From: a virus
Strand: one strand, 5' to 3'
IMG/VR virus record: IMGVR_UViG_3300050821_001293
Location: 1-25,069 of that record
Length of the DNA stretch: 25,069 nt
The notes under the pieces: generated by a model
Told to the model about the DNA's origin: nothing
Databases searched by the model: none
What the model saw: only the letters and a program-made list of their open reading frames with translations
Shown here: one piece after another, positions 2,099-23,106 of the stretch
How the letters are laid out: each line of letters starts with the position of its first letter
Numbering within the stretch: position 1 is the first letter of the stretch
Program-made: the position numbers and the translations under genes

Positions 2099-2338
2099 GC
2101 CGTCCTCCAAAAAGTTACTCCTAAATTTTTACAAGTAACCCTTCTACCAGCAATAGTTACTAGGTTACGGGTTACTTCACATCTCTCTACGTACGAACCA
2201 CTTTTCGGCCCATTCTCGCTACCCGTTTTCGCGTTAGGGTAGCCGTACGGTGAGTAACCAGTAACCCAGTAACTTTTAGCCATTTGAGCACGTAGATACA
2301 CGGTTACCGCAGTAACTTTTGGGCATTATGTCGGTAAC
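2055..2338. repeat. GTTAC/GTAAC motif cluster with long inverted repeat; candidate replication origin
   Basis: Twelve GTTAC or GTAAC pentamers occur in 284 nt (starting at 2055, 2114, 2135, 2156, 2164, 2171, 2254, 2261, 2269, 2303, 2312 and 2334), against fewer than one expected for random sequence. Three at 2155-2176 and three at 2253-2274 form a 22-bp inverted repeat matching at 20 positions. The spacer holds a perfect inner inverted repeat (GCTACCC 2218-2224, GGGTAGC 2237-2243) and the palindrome CCGTACGG (2243-2250). A/T-rich runs lie around 2120-2130. This resembles iterons around a stem, just downstream of the primase-helicase and GIY-YIG genes. A small ORF overlaps much of it. Confidence 0.6.
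2092..2283 (-). CDS. Small ORF through the repeat cluster (63 aa), uncertain
   Basis: The ATG at 2283 lacks a ribosome site; a GTG at 2301 would give 69 aa. The product (MAKSYWVTGYSPYGYPNAKT and onward) is Gly/Ser/Asn/Tyr-rich, with VTRNLVTIAGRRVTC read directly from the repeats. Its stop overlaps the next gene's ATG, which mildly supports expression. But the sequence constraint here seems to belong to the inverted repeats, so it may be chance reading. No domain is recognised. Confidence 0.3.
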   Translation of the reverse strand: MAKSYWVTGYSPYGYPNAKTGSENGPKSGSYVERCEVTRNLVTIAGRRVTCKNLGVTFWRTAC

Positions 2339-2760
2339 CCTCGTCTGTTGTATCGCGGTCTTTCACTTCTAATCGCTTGTAGCTCTGCATCTTCTAGTTG
2401 TGCACGCGAGTCGAAGTGTTCAAATTTAGCATCCACTACTTCTCGCCACCACACCTGGTATTGCGAGTGTTGTCGTATGCGGTCATTCAAACTACAAGTA
2501 ATACCAACATAAATCAACACACCATGCTTGTCATAAAATCGGTACAGAGTGTTGTTGTCTCGGGTGTTGGGCCGCACTGGTCTCATATGCGGGTACTTCT
2601 CTAAGTACGTCGGCTTACGTCGTCGTGGTTTCGACTCAACCACTTCAGCACGTCTCAGGCTATGTTGTTCAAAATAATTAGCAAGCGTACCAAATCGCTT
2701 GCGCGCTCTGTCTTCTGGCGTAGTCACGGCCATATACATTATGTTCACTTTACTCGCCAT
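2326..2760 (-). CDS. GIY-YIG nuclease (144 aa)
   Basis: The nuclease core is in the C-terminal half: LYRFYDKHGVLIYVGITCSLNDRIRQHSQ (in parts, residues ~70-100) gives the variant GIY and the YVG element, a conserved R-x-x-x-H follows, and AELQAIRSERPRYNRR supplies the catalytic-type Glu. The N-terminal ~65 residues are basic and probably bind DNA. The ATG at 2760 follows AGGGGGAG by 6 nt and overlaps the helicase stop, so it is efficiently coupled. It could be a homing endonuclease or a branched-DNA nuclease. It sits immediately next to a repeat-rich region, which may be its target or a replication origin. Confidence 0.8.
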   Translation of the reverse strand: MASKVNIMYMAVTTPEDRARKRFGTLANYFEQHSLRRAEVVESKPRRRKPTYLEKYPHMRPVRPNTRDNNTLYRFYDKHGVLIYVGITCSLNDRIRQHSQYQVWWREVVDAKFEHFDSRAQLEDAELQAIRSERPRYNRRGLPT

Positions 2761-5513
2761 CCTGCTCCCCCTTGCTCTTCATTGGGCCTCAAGCGTATGC
2801 CATAGTAGCATCGCGCAGCCTTGCCATCTATCTTGCGTACAAACGGCTTTCCAAGTGCCAAGTCCTTGGTTAGCTCTGGTCTACTGCCGACATCTACGCC
2901 ATTAGCATTACACCAACGTATGTAGCTTTCATACACTCGCGCAACAGTTGGCGTCCAATCGGCTTCTAGGTCACTAGGCACTTCGGTGCGCTTCTTGCTC
3001 TTGGCTTTAGATTTAGCGCGCTCCAAGGCACGCCTACCATCTTCACAATCACGCGCCAACTGTAGCTGTTCGCTGATAAATGCTTGCGTACTATTCAAGC
3101 CACTCACCAAGTCTCGCTGGGCTTTACGTACATCCAAAGGCGCATCATCTAAACCTTCAGCCACATACATCTTCCAACCCTCAACAAGCCAGCTCAAAAC
3201 TGCAACGCCGCTATGCTTTTCAATTTGCGTCTGTCGCTCATACTTACGGTGGCTGCGGTCTATCTCACGCTTAAACGGTAGTACCAACAAGCGTTCGTTC
3301 AACGCTTCATCAGCATGCTTAATGTTTGGCGGGTTATTGGCTGCAACCACGGTCGTAAACTGTGGGCGCCCTTCAAATATGTCGTTACTGTACTTAGCTT
3401 CAGCCATGACCTTATCGTTGCCGGTTAGTCGCTTCACGGTAGCGGCATCCATAGTGCCCGCATCGACCTCCGACATAGCCGTAACGCGCAAGGGGCACGC
3501 TCGTATTAAGCCGGGGTTCAAGTCCTTCGGCTTAAACAACGCTACATCAACAGTGCCATAGTAGTCACCAAGCGCCGAGCTCAACGCACCTATCATCGTG
3601 CTCTTGCCAGTATCGTGTGGCCCATACAAAAACACTATGCGCTTCTCTGGGTTTTCGCCAACTATCAAGTGCCCCATCACTTTTTGCACATAGCGTTGCA
3701 ATTTCTTATCTGGCAAGAACAAGTCAAGATACTCAAGCCACAACAGATAACCCTCAAGCGTCTCACCATCGCTGTTAGCCAACGAGCGCCACGGCACGTA
3801 CTCAGAACCGGTGTTGAATGTTACATAGTCCTCTTTGCGCGGCCTGCGTAGGTCTGGGTCATCGCTTAGCTCCAAAACGCCATTAGCGCAACCAAGTAGG
3901 CCAGGGTTGCTATCAAAGATGTTAGCCTTTACAGCAACTGCGTCGTCATCAACATACAAGCGTATGGCGCTTTCCATAGCGGCGTTGATCGGCCCCACGT
4001 TACCACTACGCTTGGCCCATAGACTCCACGAGCGCGCAACAGCTTTCAACGTCTTATCATCGTTGGCTAACGCTTCGGCCATAACCATACTTGCATAGGC
4101 TTCTTGCTTAAAGCGCACGCGCCGATACGCAAGCCCTACATACCTGCCATCTATGTCCCTATGCCAACGATCGCCATCCCACACAACCCAACTATCGCGC
4201 CCGTCAACATATTTCACGTTTGCACCGTACAGGTCTATGAAGTGCTGCCCGTTGCCATCATCGTGCTGGCCATAGTCCTCGGCGGGTTTAGCACTCAACA
4301 CTTCCATACGGCCAACTATGGGCCCAAGCCCTATGTTGTCGGCATCTTCTATCTCTGTTGAATCCTCTTTGTTAGCAAGCATATCCATCCACGCGTCAGC
4401 ATCGCCATAGTTGTTTAAGCACGTATCATCTGGGCGCCCAAGCCCCTCGTAAAATGGTTGTATCTTATCAAGTGCACCAGTTATGCTTCGCGCTATCTCA
4501 TCGCCGGCAGTCTCGCGTGCTCGTCCAGCGTTGTTTTGTACGTGCTCCCACCACTTCTGGTGAAAAATGTTAAGCGCCCAACCAACTCCGCTATGGCCTT
4601 CGGCTGCTAAGTTAAGCAGTCGCCAGTGGGCGGGTGTCAATTTGTCGTGGCTACTAGCTGACTCCTCAAGGCGCTCAATCCATTTGGCTACATCACGTTG
4701 CATAACTTGGCAAGGCTCATCATCGTATCTAAGTGTCAACAACCACTCGTGCAGCTCAGAGTCGGTCATGTTGCTAATCGGGTCGTCGCTCTCAAGCGTG
4801 CCCTGCCGGCTTAGGTACATAAACCACGCAACAGGCAACACTACAATATCATCTGTCGCAAGGTTGGGCAACCCATCAAACTCCTCAAAAGCCGTGGCTG
4901 GTTGCCCTACACCATAATTCAAGTCACTTGGCTTGCCGTGCAACCACTCATAAGTGGCGCCGTTGGCGTCAGGGTTAGTGCTCGGGTGTACAGCCGTAAA
5001 GCGATGCCGCTTTTGTATTACGTCTATACCCGGCGCGGCCTTGCCCATGTACCTATAGCCACGAGGCACAAGGTACACAGCGGTTCCGCTACCCGTGCCC
5101 CACCTTGCGGTACTTATAGCCGTGGCGGGTAACTCACCGTGTTCGGCCTCCAGCGCGCTTAGGTCATCGTAGCCGTGCTTCTCGCCATAGTTATCAACAT
5201 CAATGCCTAGTGTCTCCCAGCCATCGACGTTATTACCAGCGTACACAACAGGTAAATCGTTGCGCTCGTGCAGAATTGCGTCACGCACTTCGGCTAGGCG
5301 TAAGGCAATATTGCCATCGCCATCAGACTTACACCAACGAGCTACCTCAACATCCGTTGGGTGCGGTCGGCCACTACCCGTGTAACCTTTAGGTGGTGGG
5401 TGCTTTTGCCCCGGTGGTAACGGTAAAGTGCCGTCCCATCCTAACTTTCGGTATTGCTTTGCATACTTACCATATGGCCCCACGGTGCTCCCGCCAGGTT
5501 GCAAACGTACCAC
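2745..5513 (-). CDS. D5-type primase-helicase with N-terminal prim-pol domain (922 aa)
   Basis: Two-domain replication enzyme. Residues ~25-220 look like an archaeo-eukaryotic primase/prim-pol: LGIDVDNYG with the D-x-D metal pair (D105, D107), GSGTAVY, and HRFTAVHPST (170-179) with the conserved His. D5_N-type sequence (NIFDSNPGLLGCANGVLEL) lies at ~531-549. The C-terminal SF3 helicase has Walker A GPHDTGKST (631-639), an acidic Walker-B-like motif in VTAMSEVDAG (~677), sensor-1 Asn in AANNPP (724-729) and the Arg-containing ALNERLLVLPFKR (737-749). It should prime and unwind DNA for phage replication. The GTG at 5513 is the earliest start because an in-frame TGA lies four codons before; no strong ribosome site is seen. 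Its end overlaps the GIY-YIG gene by 16 nt. Confidence 0.9.
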   Translation of the reverse strand: MVRLQPGGSTVGPYGKYAKQYRKLGWDGTLPLPPGQKHPPPKGYTGSGRPHPTDVEVARWCKSDGDGNIALRLAEVRDAILHERNDLPVVYAGNNVDGWETLGIDVDNYGEKHGYDDLSALEAEHGELPATAISTARWGTGSGTAVYLVPRGYRYMGKAAPGIDVIQKRHRFTAVHPSTNPDANGATYEWLHGKPSDLNYGVGQPATAFEEFDGLPNLATDDIVVLPVAWFMYLSRQGTLESDDPISNMTDSELHEWLLTLRYDDEPCQVMQRDVAKWIERLEESASSHDKLTPAHWRLLNLAAEGHSGVGWALNIFHQKWWEHVQNNAGRARETAGDEIARSITGALDKIQPFYEGLGRPDDTCLNNYGDADAWMDMLANKEDSTEIEDADNIGLGPIVGRMEVLSAKPAEDYGQHDDGNGQHFIDLYGANVKYVDGRDSWVVWDGDRWHRDIDGRYVGLAYRRVRFKQEAYASMVMAEALANDDKTLKAVARSWSLWAKRSGNVGPINAAMESAIRLYVDDDAVAVKANIFDSNPGLLGCANGVLELSDDPDLRRPRKEDYVTFNTGSEYVPWRSLANSDGETLEGYLLWLEYLDLFLPDKKLQRYVQKVMGHLIVGENPEKRIVFLYGPHDTGKSTMIGALSSALGDYYGTVDVALFKPKDLNPGLIRACPLRVTAMSEVDAGTMDAATVKRLTGNDKVMAEAKYSNDIFEGRPQFTTVVAANNPPNIKHADEALNERLLVLPFKREIDRSHRKYERQTQIEKHSGVAVLSWLVEGWKMYVAEGLDDAPLDVRKAQRDLVSGLNSTQAFISEQLQLARDCEDGRRALERAKSKAKSKKRTEVPSDLEADWTPTVARVYESYIRWCNANGVDVGSRPELTKDLALGKPFVRKIDGKAARCYYGIRLRPNEEQGGAGWRVK

Positions 5514-6837: not shown

Positions 6838-6907
6838 TCTCCCCCTTGCGTGTTTCTCTGGCCAAATGTGTTTCGGCCTTGCACTTTTCGTACACGTCTT
6901 GCTTCAC
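6644..6907 (-). CDS. Basic, low-complexity protein (87 aa), partly overlapped
   Basis: It starts at GTG 6907 in a GTGA overlap. The product is charged then Arg/Ala/Pro-rich (VYEKCKAETHLARETRKGEN, then RRNPPDANRAARRSWGMRRS), ending QQLAAAQPPPIRAFIVGGTD. Its last ~190 nt are shared, out of frame, with the next ORF. Composition suggests a disordered nucleic-acid-binding tail. Coupling supports the start; whether the whole length is translated is uncertain. Confidence 0.5.
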   Translation of the reverse strand: MKQDVYEKCKAETHLARETRKGENDALRAAQKVAPGDTPRRNPPDANRAARRSWGMRRSYKRGNRFRQQLAAAQPPPIRAFIVGGTD

Positions 6908-12008: not shown

Positions 12009-12359
12009 TTATGTGTATGGATCCATTATGTTGAGCGCCTTGGTCATAGCTTCGGCCATGTTCTCAATTCGTTCTTCTTGCGCGTCGATGATGCCTTGCT
12101 TGCCAATACAGTCGTCTTCAAGCGCGGCAATCTGTCTGCGGTAGTTAGCGCAAGCGGCTTGCAGCTGCTCGGCCTTCTCCATCCATTTCAGTCGATCTTG
12201 TGCTAGTGTTGCATAATCCACCAAGCTCTTGATTTCATGTTCGTGTATGTCGAACGTCACCATCTTGTTAAGTTGTTCCACGACAACCCTTTCGATGTCT
12301 TCACGCGCCCACAACAGGTGCGCCGGCAAATCACTACCAGGTCCATCTTGTTTACTCAT
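12009..12359 (-). CDS. Coiled-coil protein (116 aa)
   Basis: The ATG at 12359 lies in an ATGA overlap with the thyX stop, with GAGG 6 nt upstream. Residues ~20-110 are one long charged helical region (AREDIERVVVEQLNKMVTF, LAQDRLKWMEKAEQLQAACA, ALEDDCIGKQGIIDAQEERI), a likely coiled coil with heptad-type spacing. No catalytic motif is present. Such short coiled coils may serve as oligomerisation or loader adaptors in phage replication, but no partner is visible. A 19-nt gap separates it from the resolvase. Confidence 0.6.
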   Translation of the reverse strand: MSKQDGPGSDLPAHLLWAREDIERVVVEQLNKMVTFDIHEHEIKSLVDYATLAQDRLKWMEKAEQLQAACANYRRQIAALEDDCIGKQGIIDAQEERIENMAEAMTKALNIMDPYT

Positions 12360-13390
12360 GATATCCTCGCTGCCGCATGGTTGTTCATCCACTCTTCTGG
12401 TTGAATGTTGCCAGTTGTGCTCTTGTACTCCCACATACTCACGGGCACTTTTTGCAACGGTCCTTGCACCCGGTCACGTATCGCGCAGTAACGGTCGGCG
12501 CTGCTCATGAACTCGCACTTGCCCGTCTGGTAGCAGATGGGCTTGAATACCTTGCACAGTTCCTCGAATTGCCAAAGGCTGCCGTGCCATTCGTCACCAA
12601 GCCGGTAGCTGGCTACATCATCGCCATACTCACGGAGCGCCGAAAGTATCTGTACCCAAACAACTTTCCACTCGTGCTGGGCCTGCGTACATAGCCGGTT
12701 GCCGGCGTGCTCATACAGGTTGCGCAGGTTCGTGCAGTAGTGTATGCGCGTCTGTAGGTTCGTCGGCAGCAAGCCGCGTGCGTCCTCGGCGGGCATACCC
12801 GAATCGATGAGAGCGTTGTAAACGGTGCTAATGGACTCAACGTGTTGATCCCATAGCTTACGCCATAGTTGCTCTCTGCTAGCTTGCTGATTTGCGTGCT
12901 TGAAAGCTAGCTTCCATCGCTCATTCTTTTCACGCCAAGGTATCTCATCACCAGGGAACAAGTCGCCGTAGCATTTCACGACCCATTCTTGCCACGGGAC
13001 CGTGCCGTCTAGCGATGCCGGCATTTGTACGGGCACATCCTCTTTCACCGCGAACCGCACCGACTCCTGCGCGTATACAGCGGTACGTTGACGGACCATC
13101 TGATGAGTAAAAGCACGTGTAACTCCACTGATAAGAAAGTGGAAGTTGACGAACTCAAGTGGTGCCCAGCGACGAGCCTTGAACACATCGTCCAGATAGA
13201 AGCGACGCTGCTCATCAGTAATCTCATGCAGGCCACCTGGGAACTTCCCTTCGTAAGTCATTGTCGCAGCTGCGATCTCACCTAATGGATCGTTACTTGC
13301 AGACAGGACAACGACTTTGGGCCCGCCAGCCTCCATGGGCTTCGCCGCGTACATAGCGCGGTCTGCCCACTTTTGCACCTCTTTGGTCAT
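12356..13390 (-). CDS. thyX: Flavin-dependent thymidylate synthase (344 aa)
   Basis: ThyX makes dTMP from dUMP using FAD, NADPH and methylene-tetrahydrofolate. The fold signature is clear: RWAPLEFVNFHFLISGVTRAF, then HQMVRQRTAVYAQESVRF (residues 96-113), the R-x-R-x(7)-S-x-R ThyX motif with R100, R102, S110 and R112. The usual central His of RHR is Gln here. The distal motif LPTNLQTRIHYCTNLRNLYE (~212) is followed by R...AQ.E, which binds dUMP. At 344 aa it is longer than the usual ~220-270, with extra sequence in the middle (~115-170) and a C-terminal extension containing several Cys. AGGAGC lies 7 nt before the ATG. It follows the small basic gene by 1 nt and shares ATGA with the next gene. 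Its role would be to supply dTTP for phage replication. Confidence 0.92.
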   Translation of the reverse strand: MTKEVQKWADRAMYAAKPMEAGGPKVVVLSASNDPLGEIAAATMTYEGKFPGGLHEITDEQRRFYLDDVFKARRWAPLEFVNFHFLISGVTRAFTHQMVRQRTAVYAQESVRFAVKEDVPVQMPASLDGTVPWQEWVVKCYGDLFPGDEIPWREKNERWKLAFKHANQQASREQLWRKLWDQHVESISTVYNALIDSGMPAEDARGLLPTNLQTRIHYCTNLRNLYEHAGNRLCTQAQHEWKVVWVQILSALREYGDDVASYRLGDEWHGSLWQFEELCKVFKPICYQTGKCEFMSSADRYCAIRDRVQGPLQKVPVSMWEYKSTTGNIQPEEWMNNHAAARIS

Positions 13391-13736: not shown

Positions 13737-16025
13737 CTAGTCGAGTTCAAGAGCCCACATTTCCTTCACAATTATGTTGGTACCAAAGCCATCTCGCTTC
13801 TTGCCCTTGACGATGATCACGTCTTTACCGTTACACCGCAAGTCTTCTAGTCGGTCTGCGAACCTGGGGAAGTCCCACCGGTTGATTCGGCAGTGGACAT
13901 CCTCATCGCCATCATCATAGCACTTAACCACGCATAGCTTGGTGAGCTCTGGGTCTTTGATTTCAGAAAGTATCGTGTCGGTATCCTTGTCTGTTCTGGC
14001 ACGGATGTCCTCGACAACGTCTTTGTATTCCTTGACTTTCGGGATGCCGACCCATACGACGTCAAAAGAACCATCTTCTGCCAAGTCGTCGCTCGTATGG
14101 GTTGGTTCAGGTATTCCCCACTTACCGCCTGCCAAGTCATTTCTCACACCATGCAAAATTCGTCGAATCTTGTTGACGCCGAAGGGGTCTGGGTCTTCAG
14201 CGAACGCCTGCATTTTCTCAACTGTTTTTGGACCGATACCGTGGACCTTAAGCAGGTCTTGCCAAGTAGGAGCGGTCTGCCATTGCTGGGATTCCAGGTA
14301 ATCCAGAATAGCCAGTGCCTTGGCTCGTCCAATTCCTGGTATCTGAGTGAAACCAGCACGCACAGTACGCCCGTGTTCTGGCGTCCAATTTTCCTCAGAG
14401 AACAAGACGCTAGGTGGTACCACTTTAATTCCGTGTCGGACAGCATCTTTGATGAGCTTAGTACGCTTAAAGTCATCGTTTTCCTTCCGCAGTCGCGCAG
14501 CATAGAACGCGGCGGGTTTATGCTGCTTGAACCATTGCCCCCACCACGCGATGATCGCGTAGCCGGTAGAGTGCGCAGTCACGAACGTATAGGTGGCGCT
14601 CGTCACCATGAAGCGCCAAATCTTCAGGGCCAGTTGCGGATTGATGCCATGTAGCTCCATCGCCCCGTGCTCAAACTTCTCATAGAACGAACCAAACTGC
14701 GCCTCGCCAAGTTTCGCCGAAATGATCTGGCGAATCTCATGCACGCGGGTCATGGGAAACCCGCCAATTTCCTTGATAATCCTCAGGATTTGCTCTTGGA
14801 AAATAATCTGGCCATGCGTGTGCGTAGTCTCGCGGTCCACGATGGGGTGGAGACTGATGGGGTCAGCCCGATCATGTTTAATATCAACATATTGCGCTGT
14901 TGTTCCGCTGAACAGCGGGCCTGGTCTGGAAAGCGAATTGATATCGACAAGCTCCTGGAATGTGTCAGGCTGTACGTCTCTGCAGACCAGCCGGGTAGCT
15001 CGGCCTTCAAATTGGAAAATTCCAACGACATCGCCCCTCCTGAAGGCGTCCATAGTCTTCTTGTCTTCCAACGGTATTCGGTATACATCCTCCAACGACA
15101 TACCGCAGAACTTGGCGGCCTGCCCGATCACGTTCATCGTGCTTAGGCCCAAGATGTCAAGCTTCAGAAAGCCCAGATACTTGCTGTCTTTTTTGTCAAA
15201 CGCAACGACGGTAGTCTCAACTCCATTCGTCGTCTTCGTGTACGTAGCGCAAGAATCAGTGATGGGCGTGTTACTGATGACCATTCCGGCCGCATGGACA
15301 CCCATGCCACGGTAACCACCTTCCAGCCGAACAGCGTTCGCAATGTTCGGGTGACGGTCCAAGACTTCACGGGCTTTGGGGAATGTGGCAAAAGTATCCT
15401 CAAGTGAATTGCTCTCCCGGCTATCACCACCGCCACGCTCAATGATGAGCTTCTTGACTGTCTCAGCGTCCCACTTGGGTATCTTGTAGACTCGTGCAAC
15501 GTCATCTATGCTGTTCTTTCCCTTGTAGCGCATGAAGTTAGCCATCTTGCCAACCTTGTCGGCTCCGTACTTGCGCTCAGCGTAATCGAATACCTCCCAA
15601 CGTCTTTCATCATCGAAGTCCAGGTCCACGTCAGGTAGCTCAGAGCGTGTGGGGTCGATGAAGCGCTCAAACATCAAGTTGCTGAAGATGATCGGGTCCA
15701 CTTCGGTAATTCGCAAGAGGTAACACACAAGTGATGCCGCCGCTGACCCACGGCCAGGTCCAACAGCAATCTCGTGGTCTTTAGCCCATCGTACGATGTC
15801 ACTCGTGACCAAGAAGTAGTCAACAAAACCCTTCTCAATGATGAGCTTAAGCTCATACTCCACACGCCTAATGTACTGTTTCTTGTGACGTAAAATGTTG
15901 GCGTTCTTGGTCTTTTCAATGCGGTAATCCCATCCAAAATTAAGCCACTGGCGGATTAATGCGATACCCTCGTCCGTTGACACGAGGTCAACGGTGTAGC
16001 TGTTGAGGTCTGGCTTAAGCCCCAT
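13737..16025 (-). CDS. dnaE: DNA polymerase III alpha subunit lacking the PHP domain (762 aa)
   Basis: This is the catalytic chain of a C-family replicative polymerase. GPGRGSAAASLV (89-100) is followed by PDVDLDF (131-137) with the first two catalytic Asp (D132, D134), and KLDILGLST (288-296) gives the third Asp (D290). Further DnaE signatures are FQFEGRATRLV (~338) and the thumb/fingers stretch FVTAHSTGYAIIAWW (~481-495). Two helix-hairpin-helix elements (IPGIGRAKA ~562 and VHGIGPKT ~594) precede a ~150-residue OB-like C-terminus. DnaE1 proteins are ~1100-1200 aa with PHP fused; here PHP is the separate gene at 16528-17463. The ATG at 16025 overlaps the preceding TAA and follows GAGG by ~9 nt. 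Together the two chains should form the polymerase; whether they associate is inference. Confidence 0.92.
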   Translation of the reverse strand: MGLKPDLNSYTVDLVSTDEGIALIRQWLNFGWDYRIEKTKNANILRHKKQYIRRVEYELKLIIEKGFVDYFLVTSDIVRWAKDHEIAVGPGRGSAAASLVCYLLRITEVDPIIFSNLMFERFIDPTRSELPDVDLDFDDERRWEVFDYAERKYGADKVGKMANFMRYKGKNSIDDVARVYKIPKWDAETVKKLIIERGGGDSRESNSLEDTFATFPKAREVLDRHPNIANAVRLEGGYRGMGVHAAGMVISNTPITDSCATYTKTTNGVETTVVAFDKKDSKYLGFLKLDILGLSTMNVIGQAAKFCGMSLEDVYRIPLEDKKTMDAFRRGDVVGIFQFEGRATRLVCRDVQPDTFQELVDINSLSRPGPLFSGTTAQYVDIKHDRADPISLHPIVDRETTHTHGQIIFQEQILRIIKEIGGFPMTRVHEIRQIISAKLGEAQFGSFYEKFEHGAMELHGINPQLALKIWRFMVTSATYTFVTAHSTGYAIIAWWGQWFKQHKPAAFYAARLRKENDDFKRTKLIKDAVRHGIKVVPPSVLFSEENWTPEHGRTVRAGFTQIPGIGRAKALAILDYLESQQWQTAPTWQDLLKVHGIGPKTVEKMQAFAEDPDPFGVNKIRRILHGVRNDLAGGKWGIPEPTHTSDDLAEDGSFDVVWVGIPKVKEYKDVVEDIRARTDKDTDTILSEIKDPELTKLCVVKCYDDGDEDVHCRINRWDFPRFADRLEDLRCNGKDVIIVKGKKRDGFGTNIIVKEMWALELD

Positions 16026-16407
16026 AGATTGTGCCTCGCTGGCGATTGTGTTCCGGGCACACAGCTTTCACTATGTTCTTTGGATACTTCCATACACGCG
16101 ATGGTTGCGGATGATGATAGTTAAGCGGCGCTTGGTAGATGACCAGCATGTCTTTAGCAAGGCCTGCGCGGCCACACTCGGCGCAATTGATAAGCGTCTG
16201 CGTACGTGCTAATTCAGCATGGATTAACGGCGAAGCAATGTCCACCGGCCCACACCCAAAGTCAAGTACCAAGCTAGCGTAAATTGGTGTTATGCCGCAT
16301 AATTCATGATGCTTACCGCATTCAGGTATCCCACAAGAACAACTATCATCTAGGTCGAACCAACGACCAGTAAACGCGCACTTAAGGAAATCAGGCTTGA
16401 GCCCCAC
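16015..16407 (-). CDS. Cys/His-rich putative HNH-like zinc protein (130 aa) between polymerase halves
   Basis: It starts at GTG 16407, overlapping the upstream TGA by 17 nt, and stops at TAA overlapping the polymerase start. Cysteine/histidine clusters are CAFTG (~10), CSCGIPECGKHHELC (~23-37), CAECG (~76) and CPEHNRQRG (~117). The second half has the spacing of an HNH/zinc-ribbon fold: CxxC, then NYHHPQP, then NIVKAVCPEHNR, like the N-(L/I)-x-x-(L/V)-C-x-x-(C/H)-N/H tail of HNH nucleases. However, the usual D-H-x-x-P catalytic His context is altered. It could be an HNH nuclease, a decayed one, or a structural zinc protein for the polymerase. It begins MGLKPDFLK, sharing the MGLKP start with its neighbours. 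Confidence 0.6.
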   Translation of the reverse strand: MGLKPDFLKCAFTGRWFDLDDSCSCGIPECGKHHELCGITPIYASLVLDFGCGPVDIASPLIHAELARTQTLINCAECGRAGLAKDMLVIYQAPLNYHHPQPSRVWKYPKNIVKAVCPEHNRQRGTIYGA

Positions 16408-16537
16408 GCCTCACCGCCTCATCAATTATGTTGAGTACGTACTCAACTCGTATGTATTTGCCAACTTCACCAAAGTCTGTTTGGTTGTACACGATGCGAT
16501 CCTTGAAGGCTTCGACGTCTATTGGCTTCAGACCCAT
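16391..16537 (-). CDS. 48-aa ORF inside the split polymerase locus
   Basis: The ATG at 16537 overlaps the PHP stop, and the TGA ends at 16391, inside the next ORF. The product begins MGLKPIDVEAFKDRIVY, continues through a GEVGKY turn and ends in a helical segment (YVLNIIDEAVRRG). The first five residues are identical to those of the next two ORFs. A perfect 18-bp palindrome lies within it. Upstream only a weak AGGA is present, so translation probably depends on coupling to PHP. No known domain is recognised. It may be a tiny adaptor or a remnant of the lost linker. Confidence 0.55.
   Translation of the reverse strand: MGLKPIDVEAFKDRIVYNQTDFGEVGKYIRVEYVLNIIDEAVRRGAQA
16430..16447. repeat. Perfect 18-bp palindrome
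   Basis: GTTGAGTACGTACTCAAC reads identically on both strands with no spacer. It lies inside the 48-aa ORF, so it is either a chance feature of that coding sequence or a binding or cleavage site for a dimeric protein. Confidence 0.85.
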
Positions 16538-17463
16538 GGTTCCCAATCCTGTTCGCCCGCCACGTATCTGATCGGCTCCACCTTCTGAAGCACGACGTTA
16601 CAGCGGTCTGCGATAATGGCCGTACTCTCTATGGCCGTAATCGCCGCATCTCCGCTGAGCCCGGTAGCTACGAGGTCATCGAAAACCTTTGCGTCGCTTG
16701 AAGGTATGTCAAGGGTGCAGTCGTACTCCCACGAGGCTTCAACGGCCGCAACAGTAGCGCCACGGTGAGCAGCATGAAGAATCTTCTGCATCTCATTGTC
16801 TCTTGCATAGACATAATGACAATCGCTCGTCGCAGCAAGCGGTGCTCCGGTGTCTCTGCTGAGTAGCTCAAAGGCCGGGTTGAGAGCACGAGCGCGATCA
16901 AGCATCGGAAAGCGTTGAACCTCAATGTAGTACCTGTCACCAAATATCTCTTGGTACCATTCAACCATCCCAAGGGCACGGCGGTAGTCATGCTTGTCGT
17001 AAGTGAGTCGCTGGTCACCGTAAGACTTTCCACCCAGGAGCGTGCATGATAACACTGAATCGGCGCATCCTGATAAAACGATAAGCCCATCGCTGTATTC
17101 CTCCAGCACGTTAAAGTGGATCGTGGGGAAGCGCGACTTGCTTGTTGTCCCAAGGGTTTTCCACGATTCGACCACCATCTTGTTCAGGTTGCTGTAGCCA
17201 CTTTGCGTCATCGCCAGTATCGTCTGGTGACACTTACGCTTCTGACCTGCCGGGGCAATGTAGCCTTCCAGGCCGAAGATGGCCTTGATTTTGTTTGCGA
17301 CGCAAGCCTTTTCAAGCTGAACGTGCGAGCTAACGTTGCCGTGCTCGGTGAGCGCCAACGCCTTCATACCGTAAGCAGCAACTGCCTCAGCGTGTTCGCT
17401 CGGCAGACCGTAGCCGTCGCCGTAACTGAACGTCGAATGGTGGTGTAGGGACACATAGTCCAT
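16528..17463 (-). CDS. Stand-alone PHP domain of DNA polymerase III alpha (311 aa)
   Basis: This is the N-terminal PHP domain of a DnaE-type polymerase encoded as its own chain. Visible metal-ligand motifs are LHHHSTFS (residues 6-13), ALTEHGN (near 38-44), GLEGYIAP (near 64-71) and SDCHYV (near 206-211). These match the positions where DnaE1 proteins have LHxHTxYS, LTDHGN, G.E.Y and N-D-x-HYV. The chain ends at a TGA after ADRCNVVLQKVEPIRYV, where DnaE proteins have the PHP-to-palm linker. The polymerase part follows 500 bp downstream as a separate gene. Because histidines and acids look intact, the domain could act as an exonuclease, as PHP of mycobacterial DnaE1 does; that is inference. 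Its TGA overlaps the next ORF's start (ATGGGTCTGA). Confidence 0.88.
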   Translation of the reverse strand: MDYVSLHHHSTFSYGDGYGLPSEHAEAVAAYGMKALALTEHGNVSSHVQLEKACVANKIKAIFGLEGYIAPAGQKRKCHQTILAMTQSGYSNLNKMVVESWKTLGTTSKSRFPTIHFNVLEEYSDGLIVLSGCADSVLSCTLLGGKSYGDQRLTYDKHDYRRALGMVEWYQEIFGDRYYIEVQRFPMLDRARALNPAFELLSRDTGAPLAATSDCHYVYARDNEMQKILHAAHRGATVAAVEASWEYDCTLDIPSSDAKVFDDLVATGLSGDAAITAIESTAIIADRCNVVLQKVEPIRYVAGEQDWEPWV

Positions 17464-17472
17464 CGTTCTAGT

Positions 17473-17967
17473 CTACCCTTTTAGCCCTGACCGGGCGAGT
17501 AGCAAATGCCCAAATAAGTCATCTAAAACTTCCACGGTTCCCTCGTGTTGTAGCTTCTCACCATCCCACAAGGCGCGCTTGAGCTTCCCCACTTTGCGCC
17601 ATAGCCCAACGAAGTGCGCCCGCGGTCCTAAATCCGCCAAGGCAAAGTCTTGGTAGTCAACGTTTTTCGACATAAAGCGTTCCATGATGTCCGGCAAGTG
17701 CTCGGTTACAATCTTCATGCTCTCTGGTGTCATGTTCAGAAACTCAAGGTGTGCAGAGGTTTCGCCGGTAACCTCCACATAAACTGCAGGCCTATTCAAG
17801 ATTTCAACGGCCTTGTGCCCGCCCATAGGCGACTTGCCGCATTCGCGCCCCCGCAAGACTTCGGCCTGAGAAGTGCTGCAGCGCACATAATCTGCTAGCA
17901 AGCTGTCTGCCTCTTCTTGGTTTGGGTACACCGGGTCCATCGAGATGTTGCCGTCACCTATTCCCAT
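17473..17967 (-). CDS. MazG/DUF1599-like nucleotide-metabolism protein (164 aa)
   Basis: The ATG at 17967 has GGAGAAG 5 nt upstream and overlaps the HAD gene by 14 nt. The C-terminal half (residues ~105-160) has the pattern of the all-alpha DUF1599/MazG-like fold: a Y-x-D-F start, an LGPRAHF segment, then K-x-x-K-L-K-R-A-L-W and a closing acidic helix (EVLDDLFGHLLLARSGL). The N-terminal half has a Cys near 29 and 43 and a beta-rich segment (RPAVYVEVTGETSAHLEFL). This family is linked to modified-nucleotide pathways in phages. The match is by pattern only. It lies 9 nt before the PHP gene and likely shares its mRNA. Confidence 0.5.
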   Translation of the reverse strand: MGIGDGNISMDPVYPNQEEADSLLADYVRCSTSQAEVLRGRECGKSPMGGHKAVEILNRPAVYVEVTGETSAHLEFLNMTPESMKIVTEHLPDIMERFMSKNVDYQDFALADLGPRAHFVGLWRKVGKLKRALWDGEKLQHEGTVEVLDDLFGHLLLARSGLKG

Positions 17968-18607
17968 GTTGTCTTCTCCATTTCTCAACTAGCTGAACAA
18001 AATACACTCTTGCTTCATTCAAATCTGTTACGCGCCCGCCAAAGTCGATCTGACCTAGCGCATCTGGCTCGTAGTGCCGGTTGTATGGTTGGTCCCTCAG
18101 AAAACTGCGTAAGGTTCTCCCCAACGCCTGTTCGATCATCTCTGGCAAGTCGTCCATAACGGCGACTACCCGGTTAACGCCTACGTTGCGCACCAGGTCA
18201 CGGTACTTATGCTCACCGTAGATCACCGCATCGTGCTGAATCTTGTTGCGGCGCAACCAATGGCGGGTATCTGGGTCAATGTTGTCTAGTCGCAAGTATG
18301 GGCGGGTAGTCGCAATCCATACTTCCGCACCAGCTTTGCGTATATCAACGGTTAGCTCTCTGGCTCCTGGGTAGCATGGCATGGATCGTTTAAGACCGCC
18401 CTGGCGATAAGCAAGTTTACATGATCTGTAGGTAGCCTTGCTGATTCGCATATGCTTGTGAAGGGGCAGCCCAGGGTTGATGTCTTCAGGCGTAGGCATA
18501 GCACGGCCAACCCACTGCTCCGCAAAGCGCAAAAAGTGTCCATGGTAATCTCCCAATGTGCCGTCGATATCAAGCGCGACAACAGGTTTGAAATCAGTTG
18601 GCCTCAT
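17954..18607 (-). CDS. HAD-superfamily hydrolase, probable 5'(3')-nucleotidase-like (217 aa)
   Basis: The start is the ATG at 18607 in an ATGA overlap; an upstream TTG frame lies inside the previous gene and was rejected. All four HAD motifs are visible: motif I DIDGT (nucleophile D13, acid D15), motif II with Thr in WIATTRPY (~T100), a Lys in GEHKYRD (~K134) as motif III, and motif IV VMDDLPE (D152/D153). Length and the all-helical cap between motifs I and II (residues ~20-90) fit the deoxyribonucleotidase-like branch. The expected reaction is phosphate removal from a nucleoside monophosphate, which would tune the phage dNTP pool. It lies between small unknowns and a MazG/DUF1599-like gene, consistent with nucleotide metabolism. 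Confidence 0.78.
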   Translation of the reverse strand: MRPTDFKPVVALDIDGTLGDYHGHFLRFAEQWVGRAMPTPEDINPGLPLHKHMRISKATYRSCKLAYRQGGLKRSMPCYPGARELTVDIRKAGAEVWIATTRPYLRLDNIDPDTRHWLRRNKIQHDAVIYGEHKYRDLVRNVGVNRVVAVMDDLPEMIEQALGRTLRSFLRDQPYNRHYEPDALGQIDFGGRVTDLNEARVYFVQLVEKWRRQHGNR

Positions 18608-20805: not shown

Positions 20806-21729
20806 TTAACTCTCCTCACTGTCGTCGGCCATGTCATCGGCCTCATCAGACGTGGCAGTCACCAACGTCATTGGGTTTTCTTTTACTCCTGCAACTTTCG
20901 GCCTACGCCCGCCAGCTGCGACCTTTTTGGCCGGCACAACGCGCCCAGGGGCTGGTTGCTTCGGACCTGCCTCCAGGAGTTCACGAACATCGTGAAGCCC
21001 ATTCAGCTTGCCTTCGCCGACAACAATTCTCGGCTCCAGGCACCGCGTGCGATCCTTCGCCATGACGTTGTTCGTGCCACGGAACTGGATTACGCGGAAC
21101 TCATCATAGATAGCCTTGCCGTCTTCGTCAACGCCAGTCTTACGGCGAGACACCGACATGCGACCAAAGCTGGTCATCGTGCTGGCTACCTTCTTGCTGT
21201 ATTGCGTCCCACGGCCCTGAAGCATTGGGAGCACAACCTTTTCACCCTCTTCTGTTTCCTCTTCCATCTGCAACGCCGTATACACGACGTTCACCGGAAG
21301 ACTGTTGAACAACTTAATGAACCGCATGAACTTGTTCTGGTACGGTATCCAGTCCTGCAGTTGCGGCACATCTGGGTCGCGCCCAGGGTTGTTCTCATAT
21401 GCCTCATCAAGAATGTGGCGCATACACATGTCCTGCATCTCGGTGATCGAGTCCAAGATGATCCAGTTGAATGGTATCGGGTCTTGCTCGACCAACCACT
21501 CATACGCCTCTTTGATGTCGTTCCAAGTGTTGACTTTCCACTTCTTGGCAGTGGAGCCAAATCGCTTGGCGCTCAACGTGCCGTTGTCCTCCGGTGCGAC
21601 GAACAACACGCCCTCGTCACTGCCGCAGAACACGGTCTTGCCGATACCAGAATCACCGTAGATGAGGATGTTGACGTATTCATCCTCTTCTTGTATGTCG
21701 ATGATGTTGGCGGGGAACTCAATTCCCAT
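20806..21729 (-). CDS. RecA-fold ATPase, Sak4-like single-strand annealing recombinase (307 aa)
   Basis: Walker A (GDSGIGKT) spans residues 25-32 and Walker B (FNWIILDS) lies near 87-94. A conserved downstream region (PVNVVYTALQMEEE) is followed by the target-adjacent loop LPMLQGRGTQYSKKVAS. This is the layout of phage AAA_24/Sak4 proteins, shortened RecA-like ATPases that promote annealing with a partner SSB. About 310 residues, including a Pro/Ala/Lys-rich tail (PAPGRVVPAKKVAAGGRRPK) and an acidic end (DEADDMADDSEES), fits the family with an extended C-terminus. It is coupled by TGATG to the small upstream gene and lies 3 nt before the SSB-like gene, the usual Sak4 partner arrangement. Confidence 0.82.
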   Translation of the reverse strand: MGIEFPANIIDIQEEDEYVNILIYGDSGIGKTVFCGSDEGVLFVAPEDNGTLSAKRFGSTAKKWKVNTWNDIKEAYEWLVEQDPIPFNWIILDSITEMQDMCMRHILDEAYENNPGRDPDVPQLQDWIPYQNKFMRFIKLFNSLPVNVVYTALQMEEETEEGEKVVLPMLQGRGTQYSKKVASTMTSFGRMSVSRRKTGVDEDGKAIYDEFRVIQFRGTNNVMAKDRTRCLEPRIVVGEGKLNGLHDVRELLEAGPKQPAPGRVVPAKKVAAGGRRPKVAGVKENPMTLVTATSDEADDMADDSEES

Positions 21730-21920
21730 CAGAACAACTCCCTTTCCAGCTCTGGCTTTTCGTGCATCTTACCTACGAACCGTTCAATTTCCTCAACGTG
21801 ATCAACGAGCCAATCCGCGTCACTAGGTTTGATACGGCCAAGTGCCTCAAGCTGTTTCGTTCGCTTCTTGAACGACTGCAGCTCGGCCACTCCCTTCTCT
21901 TTCAGACGAGCTACTTGCAT
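21729..21920 (-). CDS. Small helical charged protein (63 aa), overlapping the nuclease end
   Basis: The ATG at 21920 has GAAGGTG about 6 nt upstream, so the site is credible even though the ORF overlaps the last 74 nt of the nuclease gene in another frame. An internal in-frame GTG near 21896 would shorten the overlap. The sequence is helical and charged (LKEKGVAELQSFKKRTKQLEAL), with an acidic second half (DWLVDHVEEIERFVGKMHEK), suggesting a small coiled coil or adaptor. Its TGA overlaps the ATG of the Sak4-like gene (TGATG), supporting expression. Function is unknown; a recombinase-partner role is inferred only from position. Confidence 0.6.
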   Translation of the reverse strand: MQVARLKEKGVAELQSFKKRTKQLEALGRIKPSDADWLVDHVEEIERFVGKMHEKPELERELF

Positions 21921-23106
21921 CAGTCACCTTCTTGCTGTTGGTTGCGTCCTCTCTGTGATCCTCGTATGCATCATACGGTTTCATCGTGGTCTTGATGAAA
22001 TACTCTGCGTCATCGCCTGATTCATCAAGCTCGCACAAGTCCACGTACTTGCAAAACTTGCAATCTTTCGTTGGTGTCTTCAGAACGGGCAGCTCACCAG
22101 TACGTACCATATTCATCACCTGCGCCTCTTCGCTGATACGCACGATCTGCCGGTTACGTTCCTTGGGCGTACGGGGCACGAAATGCCGCACAAAGGTAAC
22201 GCCACTCTGGTCTGCGCTTACATCGCCCCAGACCGTTAAGCCGTGCTTGTCGGCATATTCAGATAAGTCACGCACCGACAACTTGAACGGATCATTAGGG
22301 AATGAAACTCCAACGCTTTCAAGGGCTTCCACGTAGTGCTTTTTGAGCGGCTTGTTACGCGCCATCCCATTATCGTCACGTGGGCGCTCGTCCAGCGGCG
22401 CTCGGCGGATGTAGTTGTACTCCATACCGCGCACCACCTGGTCGGGCTCAATCAGGCCCTGCTCCCGTAGCGCGTGCGTGCCGACGGCTATGTACGTACC
22501 GGCTTGCTCGTCCATGATCAAATAGGTGAAGTCAGGAATGCGGCCAACTGTCTTGTGATCCAACATCTTTACGAGCGGCCTGTGCTTGTTGTCTTGCATC
22601 TTCAGGTCACGCATGCAAAGGTCAATAGTCCCAACAAGAATCACCACAGGGCGGTAACCACGTTTGCCCTTCTCAGATTTCAGCGGCTTCACCCGAGTAT
22701 CAGGTATCACCACCCTGAAACGGCGCTCAGCGTCGATGATGTCCCAGTGTGGATCACCTTGGTACCGATCAACATACGCATCGAGCAACACAGCGCCAAG
22801 CTCATAGAAGTCCTCCCATGTCTTGAGCTCGTCGTCATCTGCATCCGAAACACGAAGCGACGCAACAACTTTACCCGCCAGCTTCTGCCAAGTCTCGGCG
22901 GGATGCGGGCCGCGCTTCGTGCCCGGTAGGTAGTATTCAGCCAAGCATACGTGGACGATGGTGCCGAAATCTGCAGCCTCTTTCCACTTTTCGACAATCG
23001 GCGTTATCCCCACTACGTGCTGTTGGAACCAAGCCCATTGGCACCGCTTGAACACGCCGCGCTCGCTCTGACGAAGTAGCGGCAGTTCCATATCATGTAG
23101 GCTCAC
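21847..23106 (-). CDS. PD-(D/E)XK nuclease, Cas4/RecB-like, with Fe-S-type cysteines (419 aa)
   Basis: The motifs fit the RecB/Cas4 nuclease family. A first cysteine at ~22 (FKRCQWAW) is followed by a His motif near residue 52 (GTIVHVCLAEYY), an acidic residue near 127 (DAERRF), GTID near 159-162, and a catalytic core MLDHKT near 181-186, where D183 and K185 match the D-x-K of motif III. Three further cysteines sit at ~349, 352 and 358 (CKFCKYVDLC). Four cysteines bracketing the nuclease core are typical of the 4Fe-4S cluster in Cas4 and AddB-type enzymes. The C-terminal ~55 residues are Ser/Glu-rich and probably disordered. In phages such enzymes process DNA ends for recombination. It precedes a Sak4-like ATPase and an SSB-like protein, which supports that role. 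The start is a GTG in a GTGA overlap. Confidence 0.85.
   Translation of the reverse strand: MSLHDMELPLLRQSERGVFKRCQWAWFQQHVVGITPIVEKWKEAADFGTIVHVCLAEYYLPGTKRGPHPAETWQKLAGKVVASLRVSDADDDELKTWEDFYELGAVLLDAYVDRYQGDPHWDIIDAERRFRVVIPDTRVKPLKSEKGKRGYRPVVILVGTIDLCMRDLKMQDNKHRPLVKMLDHKTVGRIPDFTYLIMDEQAGTYIAVGTHALREQGLIEPDQVVRGMEYNYIRRAPLDERPRDDNGMARNKPLKKHYVEALESVGVSFPNDPFKLSVRDLSEYADKHGLTVWGDVSADQSGVTFVRHFVPRTPKERNRQIVRISEEAQVMNMVRTGELPVLKTPTKDCKFCKYVDLCELDESGDDAEYFIKTTMKPYDAYEDHREDATNSKKVTDASSSSEREGSGRAAVVQEANETA

Follow-up and report, generated by a model that had tools for sequence, protein, structure and literature searches.

A DnaE-type DNA polymerase encoded as two chains in a relative of mycobacteriophage Onyinye, with small genes at the PHP/polymerase junction and an apparently copied start overlap

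In the bacterial DnaE and PolC polymerases surveyed so far, the PHP domain is fused to the polymerase, and its role is still debated. Phage genes in pieces have been described for nrdA with mobE in Aeh1, genes 39/60 with mobA in T4 and gene 43 in Aeromonas phage 25; in these systems the endonuclease and host genes overlap by 11-24 bp, and the pieces form active enzymes (PMC2988022). The locus described here lies in a 25,069-nucleotide (nt) fragment of a soil-phage relative (IMG/VR virus record IMGVR_UViG_3300050821_001293, positions 1 to 25,069; hereafter the window), the nearest relative of which is mycobacteriophage Onyinye. It encodes a C-family (DnaE-type) DNA polymerase as two chains, PHP and palm-to-tail, separated by two small open reading frames (ORFs). 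We assign a probability of about 0.65 to the reading that this is a polymerase in pieces, in which the overlap junction of coupled PHP and polymerase genes was colonised by small genes and the start overlap was copied. The related sequences compared are labelled by L-numbers, L003 being Leopard, L004 Aikoy, L006 Nilo, L025 Send513, and L050, L051, L052 and L057 Gordonia Erutan, Ranch, Patos and Xenia2, respectively. No published description of split PHP/polymerase genes in phages was found, although two genes are already labelled 'DnaE-like' in GenBank records.

The PHP chain (311 amino acids (aa), 16528-17463, minus strand) matches the Pfam PHP family (E 4.6e-32) and ends in DWEPWV*. In a comparison with solved structures it matches DnaE residues 3-292, and the ligand set of the Taq/Mtb-type exonuclease centre is complete (9/9), comprising H7, H9, D16, H41, E66, H79, C133, D214 and H216. 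The polymerase chain (762 aa, 13737-16025, minus strand), with the N-terminus MGLKPDL, comprises the linker, palm, fingers, HHH and tail; it matches the Pfam families DNA_pol3_alpha (2e-73), finger (4e-34) and HHH, and was aligned to residues 315-851 of E. coli DnaE. It carries the palm and fingers motifs of C-family polymerases (PDxDxDF and KxDxLGL), with the catalytic aspartates retained in PDVDLDF at 131 and LKLDILGL at 287. Instead of a single polypeptide running from PHP to HHH there are two chains with a break in the linker, as the first-pass annotation had described when it placed ORFs of 48 and 130 aa between two separate genes. The linker itself is complete, the PHP end ...YVAGEQDWEPWV and the polymerase start MGLKPDLNSYTVDLVSTDEGIALIRQWLNFGW jointly spanning the linker of intact relatives. 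Both chains evolve under purifying selection, with a ratio of nonsynonymous to synonymous substitution rates (dN/dS) of about 0.1-0.2 against Onyinye and L012. No intein domain was found in either chain by Pfam, and linker residues reach both chain ends; a split intein and a single-chain frameshift were considered and rejected as unsupported.

A split at the same linker is present in Onyinye, Leopard, Aikoy and at least 10 IMG/VR lineages, and in Papyrusvirus, Terapinvirus and Krampusvirus the break lies close to this point. Onyinyevirus (Onyinye gp82/gp84, Leopard and Aikoy, which are M. smegmatis phages) shares with the window the split point, the identities being 81% (PHP chain to gp82) and 83%, and the gene order of PHP, small ORF, polymerase, small ORF and thyX; it differs in its in-between ORFs, a 19-aa frame and an ORF of 92-94 aa in the gap, and in having no MGLKP repeat. 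The gap holds a 128-aa ORF in Papyrusvirus (Nilo and Send513) and one of 85 aa in Beyoncage, while no ORF is listed in the gap of Krampus and JingleBells. The PHP genes of Nilo (L006:2977-3912) and Send513 (L025:4477-5412) carry the annotation 'DNA polymerase III sliding clamp (Beta)'; they actually encode the DnaE PHP domain. The uninterrupted versions that the first-pass annotation proposed to look for exist in Troll4, Hawkeye, Zany, Nocardia P3.1 and others, so that the gene is split where relatives are intact, as in the known genes in pieces; the closest relatives of the window are also split. These single-chain actinophage enzymes share the domains of the window proteins, with 52-58% identity in the polymerase and a homologous PHP, but form one chain of about 1070-1150 aa. 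L045 encodes a single-chain DnaE that is intact except for a break in the polymerase frame near residue 305 (L045:6780-6900; the frame ends at 6872 and resumes near 6850 in another frame).

The polymerase and PHP trees, which were built from quick searches and contain some long branches, each require at least 5 changes between the split and intact states that are forced by supported branches. As judged from these sequences, the state has therefore changed repeatedly, either through as many splits or through fewer splits combined with fusions. One ancient split followed by re-fusions, instead of several independent splits, would make the PHP tail an inherited feature, and the tails give this idea some substance: split PHP chains end in D-(W/F/Y/L)-x-(P/A)-W in four lineages, namely the window clade (16531-16548 in the window), Papyrusvirus, Beyoncage and Krampus, and in EEMxW in a fifth (L040-L047), while intact linkers have neither motif. 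However, an overlapping ATG or GTG start would also force a terminal W after a codon ending in A or G, bacterial DnaE is intact, and in both trees several split groups each have intact chains as their sister. A single ancient split is thus possible but rather improbable, and shared inheritance, a docking tail and a sequence imposed by the overlapping start are all candidate readings of the tail motif.

The junction between the two genes is an insertion hotspot, since different small genes occupy it in related phages. At least 11 different small ORFs fill it, nearly all of them beginning on or within the PHP stop, and they include endonuclease VII in L026/L042 and L027 (Pfam 7e-13 and 3e-13), an HNH protein in L028 (HNH families, 2e-5 in PHROGs) and probably another in L034. 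In the PHP tree, L026/L042, with endonuclease VII, and the insert-free L035 are near neighbours, which indicates that an insert was gained or lost recently. Insert-free junctions occur in three split lineages (L014-L018, L030 and L035), where the PHP stop overlaps the polymerase start; the last PHP codons (PWS*, PW* or PWI*) also hold the polymerase start, in the -1 frame. At the L014 junction, CC-ATGGTCGTAAAACCAGAC, the PHP stop TAA occupies bases 8-10 of the polymerase start, with KP encoded by AAACCA, so that PHP ...PWS* lies over MVVKPDL. The first small ORF of the window begins in the same register, CC-ATGGGTCTGAAGCCA, with the stop TGA at bases 8-10 and AAGCC encoding KP. Because the stop register and the KP codons match, this start resembles the stop/start overlap of a PHP/polymerase junction without an insert.

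All three ORFs that follow PHP in the window begin with MGLKP, and the pattern RTGGGNCTNAAGCC has only three exact matches in the window, all on the minus strand, which is beyond chance. Copy 1 (ATGGGTCTGAAGCC, 16524-16537) contains the PHP stop TGA, copy 2 (GTGGGGCTCAAGCC, 16394-16407) is directly followed by the stop of the 48-aa ORF, and copy 3 (ATGGGGCTTAAGCC, 16012-16025) contains the TAA stop of the 130-aa ORF. The first-pass statement that each copy overlaps the upstream stop accordingly stands for the copies at 16537 and 16025; at 16407 the stop abuts the copy (16393-16391), though the ORFs themselves overlap. Among the 1119 ATG and GTG triplets of the minus strand, the two that open the 48-aa and 130-aa ORFs best match the polymerase start, each with 10 of the 12 bases past the start codon against 8/12 for the next best, so the copies are related sequences and chance is excluded. 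The set was absent from all fetched relatives and is seen only in the window; the sole match to an insert-free MGLKP junction elsewhere, in L054, has no PHP or polymerase match. The triplet looks like a recent local duplication of the overlapping PHP-stop/polymerase-start junction, and the last copying was probably local and recent because the window polymerase starts with GLKPDL, compared with ATRPDL and ATKPDL in Onyinye and L012.

Convergence of the three starts, as translation-favoured sequences or an N-terminal tag, would account for the confinement of their variation to four sites in 15 nt, namely the first base of the start codon and the third positions of three codons, a pattern that had already been pointed out and holds. 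The 'MG' of copy 1 is moreover imposed by the overlapping PHP codons (CC-ATG-GGT, P-W-V), so that the first small ORF begins with MG in most relatives, and 'KP' is conserved in their polymerase starts (MATRPDL, VATKPDL, MVVKPDL, VVAKP and VTKP), several of which retain M/V-x-x-K/R-P. Selection on the peptide MGLKP, which the first-pass annotation read from the synonymous differences, is weakly supported, the forced 'MG' and the conserved 'KP' counting against it. Against convergence stand the 10/12 identity of both copies, which no other start approaches, and the lack of the set in any relative, and we consider it unlikely.

The 48-aa ORF (16391-16537, minus strand, ATG start) overlaps the PHP stop by 10 nt, and its codon usage resembles that of coding sequence (0.234 log-odds per codon, a value matched by no non-coding-frame segment of the training genes); no homologs were detected in phages or viral contigs. 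Its resemblance to a duplicated polymerase N-terminus (KYI-RVEYVLNIIDE compared with QYIRRVEYELKLIIE) is not significant, as 112/2000 shuffles scored equally high, and this candidate origin was rejected. The Cys/His-rich 130-aa ORF (16015-16407, minus strand, GTG start) overlaps the 48-aa ORF by 17 nt and is itself overlapped by the start of the polymerase chain by 11 nt. Searches of phages and viral contigs returned no sequence relatives of it; the co-located 138-aa ORF of L012/L013, found only by position, is akin to it (E 1e-16, 42% over aligned columns). The AlphaFold model of the 130-aa protein was unusable (predicted local distance difference test score, pLDDT, of 44) and was excluded from the fold search. 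With a relative of the 130-aa ORF only in L012/L013, no known family for it and no relative of the 48-aa ORF, the notion of a set of co-translated polymerase partners finds no support.

If the polymerase is indeed in pieces, the PHP and polymerase genes would be translationally coupled and the two chains would most likely reassemble into one enzyme, with PHP acting in trans as a non-covalently bound subunit for 3'-5' proofreading or stabilisation. The basic junction has the PHP stop inside the first polymerase codons, as in the insert-free relatives, and is a place where small genes, including homing endonucleases, settle, as seen in relatives; endonuclease insertion probably made or maintains the split, like mobE in Aeh1 nrdA. 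The window junction would have acquired the Cys/His-rich gene common to L012 and a lineage-specific 48-aa ORF. Since the overlap must end one gene and begin the next, it may have been copied so that each gene retained a start, giving the three MGLKP copies, as their similarity suggests; copying would be the simplest way for both genes to stay whole upon entry.

The proposal that cassette entry split the enzyme holds insofar as the linker split is real and cassettes (endonuclease VII, HNH and unrelated small genes) do enter there in related phages. The alternative proposal, that duplication of the start created the split, fails: the close relatives L014-L018, L030 and L035 are split with neither an insert nor an MGLKP repeat, and Onyinye and L012 carry inserts without the repeat. 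Several points weigh against the polymerase-in-pieces reading. The complex of PHP and polymerase is a prediction from the genes, and endonucleases may have colonised an already existing split instead of creating it. The 130-aa ORF has no Pfam or endonuclease family match and nothing convincing in PHROGs, and a family search of the window found no homing endonuclease at the split. Onyinye and L012 have the split too, but their polymerases start with MAT or VAT, so GLK in the window may be a later copy and not a relic of the first insertion. Most other relatives with an insert show no elevated similarity between the first start and the polymerase start (2-7/15), and start duplication as a general trait of such relatives was rejected, not having been seen. 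Finally, in Leopard, Aikoy and L015-L018 a stop codon severs the first PHP metal motif or motifs from the remainder, which, in the absence of recoding, would speak against a catalytic PHP being essential.

These stops lie at the 5' end of the gene. In several relatives an HNH gene lies directly upstream of PHP or DnaE; next come a gene start that differs by synonymous changes, a stop codon and 1-6 bases, and then the original frame resumes. The gap is TAGCC after codon 10 in Leopard (L003, about 1736-1771), TGAAC after codon 14 in Aikoy and TAGGTGGCC after codon 13 of the single-chain DnaE in Gordonia Erutan, Ranch, Patos and Xenia2; at codon 42 it is GGT[TGAGGT]AAC in L015-L018, TGAGAGC in L038 and TAGC in L047. 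The ORF upstream in L047 is HNH-like by eye, with no match to an HNH model in Pfam. Compared with Onyinye, Leopard has 8 synonymous changes across the 10 codons that precede the gap and 0 in the next 150, and Aikoy has 14 in 14 codons and then 0 for 56 codons. Between Xenia2 and Erutan the HNH genes are 83% and DnaE 80% alike, while the replaced start through the gap end is identical at 48/48 nt. RNA structure at the gap gives z values of -1.95 in Erutan and -0.93 in Xenia2, with different folds.

The cassettes resemble a miniature form of the T4 mobA/gene 60 bypass cassette (PMC5009743), the gap of L015 having a 'stop-hop' form in which matching GGT codons flank the stop, and they are candidate mobile recoding (bypass) elements. 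If so, they would constitute a family of T4-gene-60-like bypass elements in miniature, each 4-9 nt long. A broader view, offered tentatively and as slightly less than an even chance, is that the actinophage DnaE/PHP locus is a recurrent target of homing cassettes at which translation provides the means of keeping the enzyme working. Duplicated stop/start overlaps would do so at the PHP/polymerase junction of the window; at the 5' end of PHP/DnaE in the relatives, ribosomes would hop or shift across the stop and 1-6 bases.

The severed motifs also bear on whether PHP is a non-catalytic or dispensable relic, the polymerase chain being sufficient alone. In the viable isolates Leopard and Aikoy the stop stands between the HHH metal motif and the remainder of PHP, and the first two motifs are cut off in L015-L018. 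Against this, the piece before the stop in Leopard and Aikoy is preserved at the protein level, with synonymous changes only, PHP always adjoins the polymerase, and in the window the nine ligands are conserved and dN/dS is low. A relic is accordingly improbable. Conservation of the nine PHP ligands and of the polymerase aspartates makes it likely that the enzyme has two subunits and that PHP proofreads, and the separate PHP exonuclease subunit suggested by the first-pass annotation appears plausible, all nine exonuclease metal ligands being kept.

Programmed frameshifting or bypassing that joins the chains, so that the split is merely apparent, would fit the -1 frame of the polymerase in insert-free relatives and the existence of phage bypass elements (PMC5009743), but is very unlikely, as 503 nt and two further ORFs intervene in the window and every relative has a separate start codon for the polymerase. 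The window is a contig from a metagenome, but an origin of the split in sequencing or assembly error, or in an artefactual frameshift, is refuted by its occurrence in independent isolates and contigs.

Upstream of PHP lies a gene for a 165-aa protein (17473-17970, minus strand) that resembles Onyinye gp81, the C-terminal parts being alike; no HNH cassette precedes PHP in the window, and no HNH_3 match was found. Downstream the order is as in Onyinye, with a ThyX-like thymidylate synthase (12356-13390, minus strand; Pfam Thy1 1.4e-30). Elsewhere in the window, a GIY-YIG endonuclease gene (2326-2760, minus strand; Pfam 1.8e-6) overlaps the end of a primase-polymerase/D5-like helicase gene (2745-5513), and genes for an AAA_24 ATPase and a PD-(D/E)XK nuclease adjoin (20806-23106, minus strand), comparable to the RecA-like/Cas4-like pair near the Papyrusvirus polymerase (L006).

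The locus shows repeated gene splitting at one linker, filled by varied small genes and endonucleases, and it suggests a route by which a gene could enter an overlapping stop/start junction harmlessly, namely by copying of the overlap. With PHP encoded by a separate and deletable gene, its role as proofreader, structural support or relic becomes testable in M. smegmatis phages.

Among known systems, the T4 gene 60/mobA arrangement of an endonuclease gene, a replaced 5' piece and a stop at a coding gap is seen in relatives but not in the window. Cyanobacterial split DnaE likewise derives from two genes; unlike the window chains, in which no intein was found, it is joined by an intein. DnaE1 of M. 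tuberculosis has the same nine-ligand proofreading centre, with PHP within one chain (PMC5636811). Like the genes in pieces of the Aeh1 nrdA/mobE type, the window family has a replication or nucleotide-metabolism enzyme in two chains, a site that endonuclease genes occupy in some relatives and an overlapping stop and start. It differs from them in that the ORFs inserted in the window match no endonuclease family, that a C-family polymerase is cut between PHP and palm, and that the overlap itself is triplicated.

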